Below are positions 10,955 to 17,267 of a DNA stretch of 52,458 nucleotides, piece after piece; position 1 is the first letter of the stretch, and each line of letters starts with the position of its first letter. Location: NCBI GenBank assembly GCA_009659925.1, contig PUXW01000020.1, forward strand, positions 1 through 52,458. Reading direction: 5' to 3'. The position numbers were made by a program, and so were the translations under genes. Source of the stretch: Nitratiruptor sp. (GTDB lineage Bacteria; Campylobacterota; Campylobacteria; Campylobacterales; Nitratiruptoraceae). The notes beneath the pieces are model-generated. The model was not told where the DNA came from and did no database searches. It was given only the letters and a program-made list of their open reading frames with translations.

Positions 10955-13299
<2,345 letters not shown>

Positions 13300-14367
13300 T
13301 TATAGCACAATCGGCATAACGATGGTGGTGAAGTTGCCACTTCGCAGCTGGAAGGGGATATCCGGTTCGTTGATCCCCATCTCGAAGTGCTCTTCGTCTA
13401 TTTGGGCGAGAAAGTCCAGGAGGTAGCGGCTGTTCATCCCCATGGTGAAAGGCTCCCGGAAGGGGGTTGCCACCTCGATTTCGGTCTGGGCTTCGATATT
13501 GTCGTCACTAAGGTTGGTGAAGTGGATCCGATCTGGGAGGAAGGTGAGTTTGATCTCGCTGGAGATGATGGTGATTTGTTTGATGGCGTCAACCATCGCC
13601 TGTTTGGGAAGGGTGAGCTTGTAACGGAGACTTTGGGGGATGATCCGTTCGTAGTCCGGGTAGCGCCCGTTGATGAGTTTGGTGAAGAGAGTGTAGTTGG
13701 GACTGGTGACGATGAGGTGGTTGGGATCGTAGCCTACCTCCATCTGGTTGAGGAAGATCTTCTGGATTTCGGTAATGGCCCTTTTGGGGATGATGAGTTG
13801 GAGTTCCTGGTCCAAGGTTTTAGGGATACTCACTAAGGCAAGACGGCGGGTATCGGTAGCAACGAAGTTGATCCGGTCTCCCTTGATGTCGATGAGGGCA
13901 CCATTGAGTTCGTATTTGGGGTTGTTGGTATCGATGGCCGGAGCGATCTTCTTGAAGGAGTCGATGAATTCCCGGGCCTGCATATCGATCCGGGGAAGGT
14001 TGCTCGTTTCAGGAAAGGGGGGAAATTGGGAGGGATCGAAGGAGGGGAGTTTGAACTTAGAACTCTTTTGGGTGATGCGCAGGGCATCTCCCTTGCCTTC
14101 CAGCGTGATGGTGCCCTCCTTGAGGATCCGGACGATGTCGAGGAGTTTTTTCCCGTTGGCCGTCACTGCCCCCGGTTCGTGGATGGTGGCCTCTTGGAGT
14201 TGGGTGGCTAGTCCCATCTCGTAGTCACTGGCTTTGAGTTCGAGACCCTGGTCGGTGGCATTGAGGTAGATGTGGGAGGTGATCTGGCTCATATCCCGCT
14301 TTTCCAGAAAGGGTTGCATCTGGCTGAGGATTTGTTCCAGCAAACTCTTGTCGATTTCGATCTTCAT
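13300..14367 (-). CDS. dnaN: DNA polymerase III beta subunit (sliding clamp)
   Basis: The ring-shaped processivity clamp of the replicative polymerase. The 355-aa protein has the expected three repeated clamp domains, with the first starting MKIEIDKSLLEQILSQM and the family motif SGNFTTIVMPIVL at the C-terminus, whose final residues form part of the partner-binding pocket. It lies downstream of dnaA, separated by the oriC2 region, and 24 bp upstream of gyrB. Confidence 0.97.
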   Translation of the reverse strand: MKIEIDKSLLEQILSQMQPFLEKRDMSQITSHIYLNATDQGLELKASDYEMGLATQLQEATIHEPGAVTANGKKLLDIVRILKEGTITLEGKGDALRITQKSSKFKLPSFDPSQFPPFPETSNLPRIDMQAREFIDSFKKIAPAIDTNNPKYELNGALIDIKGDRINFVATDTRRLALVSIPKTLDQELQLIIPKRAITEIQKIFLNQMEVGYDPNHLIVTSPNYTLFTKLINGRYPDYERIIPQSLRYKLTLPKQAMVDAIKQITIISSEIKLTFLPDRIHFTNLSDDNIEAQTEIEVATPFREPFTMGMNSRYLLDFLAQIDEEHFEMGINEPDIPFQLRSGNFTTIVMPIVL

Positions 14368-14390
14368 TGCGCACTCCCAACTAACTTTTC

Positions 14391-14546
14391 CTTATTCTAG
14401 TCTTTTTATGCTTTAATTTTTTTAAACTTAGATAGTAGTAGTAGTAGTTTGGTGTGAATTGTGTGAAAAAGTGATGGGAGCTCCCATCCCATCGGGACTT
14501 TGGATGTGAAAAAAGATGTGAATAACATGTGAACAAATGTGAATAA
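14391..14546 (-). other. oriC2: Replication origin part 2 (oriC2): AT-rich DUE, DnaA trios and DnaA boxes
   Basis: This dnaA-dnaN spacer holds the unwinding half of the origin. From left to right there is an AT-rich stretch (14391-14430), five tandem TAG trinucleotides (14433-14447; CTA repeats on the other strand), a 5-nt spacer, and DnaA boxes of the TGTGAAnnn type at 14453, 14462, 14505, 14517, 14528 and 14538. Those at 14517 and 14538 are the exact TGTGAATAA (TTATTCACA on the minus strand). Box, short spacer, trios, then AT-rich DNA is the arrangement of the Bacillus subtilis basal unwinding system. A perfect 16-bp palindrome, GATGGGAGCTCCCATC (14473-14488), lies between the box groups. 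A bipartite origin with unwinding beside the dnaA 3' side is known in Helicobacter pylori. Confidence 0.85.
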
Positions 14547-14576
14547 CTTTCCACCTCTTCCCACTCCCTCCGGCTC

Positions 14577-15893
14577 TCAAGGAGAAGAGAGGCGTTTGAT
14601 CTTGTGTTGGAGGGAGGCGATGAAGAGTTTGAATTCGGGATCCTTTTGGATTTGCTCCTGGATACGTCGCATGGCGTGGCTCACTGTGGAGTGGTCCCTC
14701 ATTCCGAAGAACTGGGCGAGGGCTGGCATCGAGTTGGGGGTGAGGGTTCGGGCCAGGTAGATGACAATCCGTCTAGCTAGGACAGTTCGTCGGCTCCGGC
14801 TCTTGCTCCGGATTTCGCTGGGTTTGATGTTGAGTTCGCTGGCTACGAGGGTGACGATATCTTGGAGTTGGATGCTCTGCTCTTGCTCCTTGCGCTGTTC
14901 GGAGAGCACACTTTGGGCCAGCTCGATGGTGATGGGCTGGTTGACGAGGGTGGAGTAGGCGTTGAGCTTGTTGATGACCCCTTCGATCTCCCGAATATTG
15001 CTGTCCATGTGGGTGGCGATGTAGTTGATGACCTCATCCTCCAGCTCGATCTTGTTGAGTTCGCACTTCTTCTTGATGATGGCGATTTTGGTCTCCAGTT
15101 CCGGGGGCTGGATATCGGCGATGAGTCCCCACTCGAACCGGCTTTTGAGGCGATCTTCCAGACCGACGATCTCCTTGGGGTGTTTGTCGCTGGTGAGGAC
15201 GATCTGTTTTGAGGCGGTATGAAGTTCGTTGAAGGTGTGAAAAAACTCCTCTTGGGTGCGCTCCTTGCCGCTGAGGAATTGGACATCATCAATGAGAAGG
15301 ATGTCGCATTTGCGGTATTTCTGACGGAAATGCTCGATACTCTGGTTGCGTAGGTGGTAGGTGAAATCGTTCATGAACTGCTCGATGGTCACATAGATGA
15401 CAATACGGCCCCGGGCTAGGTTGTAGTTGCCAATGGCATGGAGGAGGTGGGTTTTGCCAAGCCCCACCCCACCGTGGATGAAGAGGGGATTGTAGACCTT
15501 GCCTGGACGCTCTGCAACGCTCAAGGCGGCGGTATAGGCGAAGTGGTTGGAGCTTCCAACGACGAAGTTTTCGAAGATGTAGGTCGGATTGATCTTGGTG
15601 CTGGGAGGGGTCGGATTGGGCTCCCACTGGGGGTTGGTGCGCTGGATCGGAAGGGTGGTAGGGGTGGTAATTTCGACTTGGGTCTTCATTCCTGTGCGCA
15701 GTTGGAAGAGTTGGGCCATCTTCTTGGCATATTTGGCCCGAACCCAGTTGGCGATGAAGATGTTGGGGGCTTCGAAGACGATCCAATCGCTCTTGGAGCG
15801 CTCCTCGTCGAGTCGAAGTTGCTTAATGTAGCGCTCATATTCGCTTTGGGGAATCTCCTCTTCCAGACGCTGGAGTATCTCTTCGATGAACAC
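14577..15893 (-). CDS. dnaA: Chromosomal replication initiator protein
   Basis: DnaA binds DnaA boxes, oligomerises with ATP and melts the origin. The 438-aa protein has the N-terminal helical domain I, a short linker (about residues 78-100), the AAA+ domain with Walker A GGVGLGKTHLL and Walker B ILLIDDVQFL, and the C-terminal DNA-binding domain with the signature MRDHSTVSHAMRRI, a slightly divergent form of the usual GRDHTTV-type helix. The start is GTG at 15893, with AGGTGA upstream. The gene is flanked on both sides by DnaA-box clusters, so autoregulation is likely. Confidence 0.98.
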   Translation of the reverse strand: MFIEEILQRLEEEIPQSEYERYIKQLRLDEERSKSDWIVFEAPNIFIANWVRAKYAKKMAQLFQLRTGMKTQVEITTPTTLPIQRTNPQWEPNPTPPSTKINPTYIFENFVVGSSNHFAYTAALSVAERPGKVYNPLFIHGGVGLGKTHLLHAIGNYNLARGRIVIYVTIEQFMNDFTYHLRNQSIEHFRQKYRKCDILLIDDVQFLSGKERTQEEFFHTFNELHTASKQIVLTSDKHPKEIVGLEDRLKSRFEWGLIADIQPPELETKIAIIKKKCELNKIELEDEVINYIATHMDSNIREIEGVINKLNAYSTLVNQPITIELAQSVLSEQRKEQEQSIQLQDIVTLVASELNIKPSEIRSKSRSRRTVLARRIVIYLARTLTPNSMPALAQFFGMRDHSTVSHAMRRIQEQIQKDPEFKLFIASLQHKIKRLSSP

Positions 15894-15911
15894 GGGTCAC
15901 CTCGTTTGCGT

Positions 15912-16083
15912 TGTGAATATGTGAATATGTGTGAATATGTGAAAATCTACCTAAGGGATGTGAAAAACCTACCCTGTGAATATCTGCCCACAATTCTATC
16001 CTAAATCCCTTCCAATTGGCTACAATAGGGACTTTGTGAGATGGAAAGAGGGTGTGAATAACATGTGAATAATATGTGAATAA
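15912..16083 (+). other. oriC1: Replication origin part 1 (oriC1): DnaA-box cluster upstream of dnaA
   Basis: The dnaA-ruvC intergenic region carries at least nine TGTGAAnnn boxes, all in one orientation. TGTGAATAT occurs at 15912, 15920, 15930 and 15975, TGTGAAAAT at 15938, TGTGAAAAA at 15959, and the exact TGTGAATAA at 16053, 16064 and 16075. The last three are spaced exactly 11 bp, about one helical turn, placing DnaA molecules on one face of the DNA. The cluster must overlap the promoters of dnaA (leftward) and ruvC (rightward), the last box ending 15 bp before the ruvC start. It matches the upstream half of the bipartite origin described in Helicobacter. Confidence 0.85.
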
Positions 16084-16097
16084 CTGGAGGAGGCGTG

Positions 16098-16565
16098 ATG
16101 AAAATCCTTGGAATCGATCCTGGGAGTCGGCGATTAGGTTATGGGATCGTTGCTTTAGAGGGCAGGCGGCTTCGGTTGGTCGAAGCGGGGGTCGTCCATA
16201 TCCGTAGCGACCATTTTCAAAGCCAGCTCCTCGAAGTGGTGGAGGGGCTCGATCAAATTGGCCAGGACCAAAGTATCGACGCGGTAGCCCTGGAGGGGAT
16301 CTTCTACGCTTATAATCCTCAAAGCGTCCTCAAACTAGCCCAGTTTCGGGGAGCCATCGCCCTCCGCCTCCTGGAGCGTTATGGCAAGTTCCACGAGTAT
16401 ACCCCCCTCCAGGTGAAACGAGCCCTCACAGGCAATGGCAAGGCGACCAAGGAGCAGGTCGCCTTCATGGTCCGTCAATTTCTCGGAATCCGCAAGGAGC
16501 TGCGCCCCTTTGACATGAGTGACGCCCTGGCGGTGGCCATCACCCACGCCCAGCGGCTAAAATGA
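16098..16565 (+). CDS. ruvC: Holliday junction resolvase RuvC
   Basis: RuvC cuts four-way DNA junctions during recombinational repair, working with RuvAB. The 155-aa protein has the first catalytic Asp in [18 protein letters not shown], Glu in [19 protein letters not shown], and the terminal pair in [14 protein letters not shown]. The start is ATG 16098 after GGAGGAGG; a GTG one codon earlier is too close to that site. Its 3' end overlaps the convergent DUF481 gene by 9 bp. The DnaA boxes of oriC1 end just upstream, so its transcription may respond to DnaA. Confidence 0.95.
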
Positions 16566-17267
16566 GATGCCAAGGCGCACGATGCTCTTGGTGTCGGTCT
16601 TTTTAAAGCCGGCAGGGGGGAGGTTGTCGTAGATCACCTGCTCTTCGATGACGGCGTGGATCCCTTCGGCGATGTTGAATTTGAGGCCGAGGATCCCACT
16701 CACTTCGTAGTTGTTGGAAAAGTCGTCGAAGGCCTCGTTGGCTTTGAGGGTCCCATAGAGGAGGCTGAGCTGGTTGAGCTTGTTGGTATAGTCTACCTGT
16801 TGGAGGAGGGAGCCGAAAGTGTCGGTCTTGGTCTCATCGGCGAAGTCGAGGACATTGTAACCAACACCGAGTTTGAGTTTGAGGGAGCTTTGCCCGTCGT
16901 TATAGACCTCCTTCCCGGCTCCCAGACCGAAGGTGTACTTTCCGTCGTAGTTCTTGAAATCCGGGTTGCGCAGCCAGTCGAAGGTGAAGTAGCCAAGCCA
17001 CCCATCGGCGATAAACTGGTCGAGGCCAAGGGAGGCCGTGTACTCCTCGTTACTCTTGATGTCGTCGTTTTCAGCGTAAAAGGCGCTTATGGCGAAGGAG
17101 AGGTTCAAGGGTTGGGCGTTGAGGCCGGTCGTGGTATGGCGGAGGGCGTAGCGGGCGTTGAGGTTGGTGGTCTTGGTATTTCCAGTGGTGTTGGTAAAGC
17201 CCAAATCGATGCTCTGACCGCCGAAAAGGAGGGCGGTAGCTATGGAGAGGGTTGCTAGTTGTCGCAT
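16557..17267 (-). CDS. DUF481 (YdiY-like) outer-membrane beta-barrel protein
   Basis: A 236-aa protein with a short N-terminal hydrophobic export signal ([19 protein letters not shown]) and then alternating beta strands ending in the outer-membrane signature RLGISF with C-terminal Phe. Motifs of the DUF481 family (salt-induced OMPs) are seen: [18 protein letters not shown] near the N-terminus and repeated strands such as [12 protein letters not shown] and [14 protein letters not shown]. The function is unknown. Its start overlaps the thyX stop by 13 nt, which is odd because thyX is cytoplasmic, so co-expression may be a by-product of compaction. Confidence 0.78.

Follow-up and report, generated by a model that had tools for sequence, protein, structure and literature searches.

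The window analysed here is a 52,458-bp stretch of DNA from a Campylobacterota genome of 20 contigs and 1,440,596 bp (1.44 Mb). It carries dnaA and dnaN on the minus strand, with gyrB after dnaN and a divergent ruvC upstream of dnaA. The closest relatives of this dnaA are at most 77% identical and come from MAGs labelled Campylobacterales, Campylobacterota or Nitratiruptor sp. An Rfam scan of positions 13000-17000 returned no matches. The features of the locus are as follows.

13300..14367, minus strand: dnaN, DNA polymerase III beta clamp (TIGR00663, E 3.3e-76)
14368..14576, no strand: oriC2, the dnaA-dnaN intergenic region, 209 bp (gene calls; synteny)
14391..14432, no strand: AT-rich part of the DNA unwinding element (DUE), 81% A+T (nearest-neighbour energy)
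14433..14447, plus strand: DnaA-trio array TAGTAGTAGTAGTAG, five perfect 5'-TAG-3' (3'-GAT-5'), or 5'-CTA-3' five times on the minus strand (direct reading; alignment with relatives' trios)
14448..14452, no strand: spacer TTTGG / CCAAA, 5 bp, from the proximal box to trio 1 (direct reading)
14453..14461, minus strand: DUE-proximal DnaA box TGTGAATTG, minus strand CAATTCACA, 2 mismatches to TTATTCACA
14462..14470, minus strand: second, co-oriented DnaA box TGTGAAAAA, minus strand TTTTTCACA, 1 mismatch to TTATTCACA, abutting the proximal box
14505..14546, minus strand: distal oriC2 DnaA boxes TTTTTCACA (14505-14513), TTATTCACA (14517-14525) and TTATTCACA (14538-14546) (direct reading)
14577..15893, minus strand: dnaA, initiator, 438 aa (TIGR00362, E 1.9e-157)
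15894..16094, no strand: oriC1, the dnaA-ruvC intergenic region, with nine DnaA boxes at 15912-16083 in the same orientation (direct reading)

Read on the plus strand from dnaN towards dnaA, the element consists of AT-rich DNA, five TAG triplets, TTTGG and two abutting DnaA boxes. The initial annotation had reported five TAG repeats between a DnaA box and an AT-rich stretch, and direct reading confirmed them at 14433-14447; its single box is the first of the pair, and the second, at 14462-14470, was missing from it. The trios lie some 130 bp beyond the stop codon of dnaA and 65 bp short of the dnaN start. The earlier placement of the likely unwinding site in oriC2 stands; its description as next to the dnaA 3' end needs a small correction. 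A+T content reaches 82.5% at 14391-14430 in a window of about 55% G+C. Nearest-neighbour energies place the lowest-stability 50-mer of the whole window at 14391-14440.

Nine boxes lie upstream of dnaA and five downstream, all in one orientation, with DUE-like DNA in the dnaA-dnaN gap, as in a bipartite origin. The oriC1 boxes are of the TTCACA type, and three perfect copies of TTATTCACA stand at 11-bp pitch (16053, 16064 and 16075) just before ruvC. In relatives, DnaA bridging oriC1 and oriC2 by looping has been seen by electron microscopy (PMC5043019). dnaN lies downstream of dnaA in nearly all relatives fetched. At two loci (L131 and L134) the sequence downstream of dnaA holds no dnaN, so the synteny is broken there, and perhaps oriC2 too; the source genome of L131 has 8% contamination, and that case may be a binning artefact.

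The layout was compared with what is expected of a basal unwinding system (BUS). Such a system starts from a DnaA box with at most two mismatches, ideally in a co-oriented tandem pair, and CAATTCACA and TTTTTCACA form such a pair. The spacer to the first trio may measure 0-16 bp (PMC8287927) and is 5 bp here. Five perfect 3'-GAT-5' trios occupy the place of the at least three consecutive 3'-NAN-5' triplets, preferably 3'-GAT-5', and they have the correct polarity, lying on the complement of the strand that carries CACA in the boxes. The unstable AT-rich DNA follows the trios directly. The DnaA protein also carries the residues with which trio bases are captured: the alignment gives N175, R190 and E216 as identical to B. 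subtilis N187, R202 and E228, which contact the trio (PMC10721633). B. subtilis I193 is replaced by Leu, and I190, which flanks the third trio base (PMC10721633), by Thr (T178). According to the same paper, the trio-contacting residues are not universally conserved.

Searches of the whole genome found a single copy of (TAG)5 and no (CTA)4 elsewhere, and the array is the only trinucleotide repeat of at least four copies in the window. When the 209-bp gap was dinucleotide-shuffled 5000 times, no shuffled sequence scored as high for trios as the real one. Among 399 genomes of the order, 12 have five exact in-register CTA at 7 nt after TTCA (6-nt box spacing), and six of the 12 belong to this genus. 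The genus copies of (CTA)5 (6 of 16 genomes, one copy each) are all at oriC2, about 95-130 bp past the dnaA match. The looser pattern TTCAC-N6-CTACTA-N6-CTA was discarded as not diagnostic, with 16 genome matches at 2 mismatches versus 68 for the reversed control. An ordinary trinucleotide microsatellite, sitting in the gap by chance and with no part in unwinding, could have become perfect by slippage, and repeat perfection does vary among close relatives. Against this origin stand the singularity of the repeat in window and genome, the oriC2 position of six out of six genus arrays, and the imperfect arrays of relatives, which keep the same register beside the boxes. The comparative data contradict the microsatellite as the main explanation, and we consider it very improbable.

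dnaA-dnaN gaps were taken from loci of about 20 families (n=121). Automatic anchoring on the box pair and the first two triplets succeeded for 98 of the 121, and most of the others show a variant by eye. The anchored relatives have the tandem box pair. After the TCAN core of the box, the spacer is 6 nt long in 69 gaps and 5 nt long in 29, and A+T content averages 86% over the 25 nt that follow the trio. The twin boxes 14453-14470 abut at 9-bp pitch, whereas 95 of the 98 anchored gaps have 8-bp pitch, with a 1-bp overlap; the 9-bp pitch recurs in the closest relative (L003). Distance to dnaN bears on another reading, in which the TAG/AT segment serves chiefly as promoter or leader of dnaN and the DNA unwinds at another place. 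The segment is in the gap upstream of dnaN, 65 bp from the gene, and AT-rich upstream DNA is promoter-like. However, the trio-to-dnaN distance varies from 19 to 114 nt among the anchored gaps while the spacing to the boxes changes by at most 1 nt, and a search of the dnaA-dnaN gap for sigma-70-like promoters gave no match. On these two grounds a dnaN element was rejected as the main explanation and is given only a slim chance; the segment may nevertheless have a dual role, in unwinding and as promoter or leader of dnaN.

A sequence-only model was built from 23 diverse relatives with this locus left out. Its best match in the present genome was 14421-14470 (E 8.1e-6). The dnaA-adjacent oriC2 site was also the best match in 16 of 16 genomes of the genus; seven of the 23 training sequences come from the same genus, which leaves the test independent for the window, though not for each of the genomes. 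The predicted unwinding module is conserved across the order Campylobacterales. The model also speaks to whether the true unwinding site lies in oriC1, in the dnaA-ruvC gap, with oriC2 merely binding DnaA. In favour of this, oriC1 has the larger number of boxes (nine) and an AT-rich stretch, 15916-15965, that ranks within the eight least stable 50-mers. Yet oriC1 contains no trio array: the model matched the box part only, with E 0.0087 in the window search and 0.24 genome-wide, versus 8e-6 for oriC2. Unwinding was mapped exclusively to oriC2 in the three relatives tested, A. butzleri, S. denitrificans and W. succinogenes (PMC5043019). An oriC1 unwinding site is accordingly most improbable.

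Judged from its sequence, 14391-14470 is very probably (about 93%) the basal unwinding element of the chromosome origin, located in oriC2, one half of a bipartite oriC1-dnaA-oriC2 arrangement. Order, polarity, spacing, boxes, AT-rich flank, gene context and DnaA residues all fit the DnaA-trio reading first put forward in the initial annotation. Three points speak against an unwinding element: the two mismatches of the proximal box, the atypical 9-bp box pitch and the replacement of I190 by T178.

Trios have been reported in Arcobacter, Wolinella, Sulfurimonas and Campylobacter (PMC5043019, PMC6052347). With the oriC2 of Arcobacter, Sulfurimonas and Wolinella and the oriC of Campylobacter jejuni, the present site shares a DUE in the dnaA-dnaN gap, a DnaA-trio and a tandem or R1-type box. 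The trios of C. jejuni are degenerate, in contrast to those described here, and its twin boxes overlap by 1 bp, as in most fetched relatives, whereas here they abut without overlap. As in B. subtilis (PMC6669920, PMC10721633), the order and polarity are box pair, spacer, 3'-GAT-5' trios and AT-rich DNA, and the equivalents of N187, R202 and E228 are kept. Unlike B. subtilis, the boxes are TTCAC-type rather than TTATCCACA, the spacer is not GGCC, the trios are more uniform and the I190 equivalent is Thr. The Bacillus-like layout noted at first is real, although the nearest system with experimental proof is H. pylori oriC2, which makes the finding less surprising.

In the H. pylori study (PMC8235120), permanganate, P1 and DMS mapping placed opening at the oriC2 trios. 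Disruption or inversion of the trios inhibited opening, while a 21-bp deletion in the AT-rich part did not. The bipartite origin, the DUE between dnaA and dnaN, the tandem DUE-proximal boxes, the five trios and the AT-rich flank described there all recur here. By position, the proximal box 14453-14461 corresponds to H. pylori ts2 and B. subtilis box 7, and the second box 14462-14470 to ts1 and box 6. The differences are that all five trios are perfect CTA here, whereas those of H. pylori follow a looser YTR consensus with a third trio of 3'-GAC-5' on the bound strand, and that the spacer CCAAA is not GC-rich, unlike the GC-rich sequence beside ts1/ts2. Three trios added to the H. pylori array in vitro gave a longer filament and left the P1 susceptibility of the plasmid unchanged, so there is no ground for a special role of perfect repeats. 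The perfection emphasised at the outset is indeed uncommon in the order, but it recurs within the genus and has no demonstrated functional meaning. Trio-driven unwinding of oriC2 has already been demonstrated biochemically in H. pylori, and this site would be an unusually clean further case.

The same mechanism is the natural inference from the B. subtilis and H. pylori data, given that the base-contacting DnaA residues are kept. In B. subtilis, two DnaA molecules bound to tandem boxes nucleate an oligomer of ATP-DnaA, and this oligomer captures G and A from every 3'-GAT-5' trio (PMC10721633). By analogy with these relatives, two DnaA molecules would bind the tandem boxes 14453-14470, and ATP-DnaA would extend from them as a filament onto the plus strand, with each protomer taking up one TAG and capturing its G and A. 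Opening of the duplex would then start at the trio and spread through the AT-rich flank in the direction of dnaN, and the single strand so exposed could serve helicase loading.

The relatives' arrays were also compared triplet by triplet, with the slot count anchored on the boxes and triplets 1-2 only. CTA stands at slot 5 in 90 of 95 relatives, at slot 4 in 16 and at slot 6 in none (0/95), figures that may be affected by shared ancestry, dropped loci, a possible second function of the CTA-AT junction and lineages with a 1-nt shift. In these lineages (L119, L120 and L117, from two families) an apparent 1-nt insertion inside the array shifts the last triplets. Among 23 sequences of less than 72% identity, CTA occurs at slot 5 in 20 and at slot 4 in 5 (Fisher p 1.8e-5); with one hand-registered locus per family the counts are 14/18 versus 6/18 (p 0.018). 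The Campylobacterales array has five slots: 1, 2 and 5 are nearly always CTA, the fourth is loosely kept, and CTA never stands at slot 6. A conserved length of about five trios has already been published (PMC8235120). For the loose slot 4 beside a fixed slot 5, we found no earlier description in the published main-text passages, as distinct from the supplementary Epsilonproteobacteria trio alignments, and this comparative pattern is possibly the one new point. A tentative interpretation, which we hold to be rather unlikely, is that the array is a fixed five-slot ruler rather than simply three or more repeats in a row, one in which CTA is kept at slots 1, 2 and 5, slot 4 can lose even its central base and nothing trio-like comes after slot 5. 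This would imply a set DnaA filament length, with slot 5 read specifically by the last protomer or by a filament-end partner such as the helicase loader.

The locus adds a very clean trio example from a little-studied branch of the Campylobacterota, with the likely unwinding site marked to the base. Published work on B. subtilis assigns the essential role to trios 1-3, those nearest the box. Equal constraint on slot 5 and on slots 1 and 2 in Campylobacterales would be a testable refinement of this emphasis.
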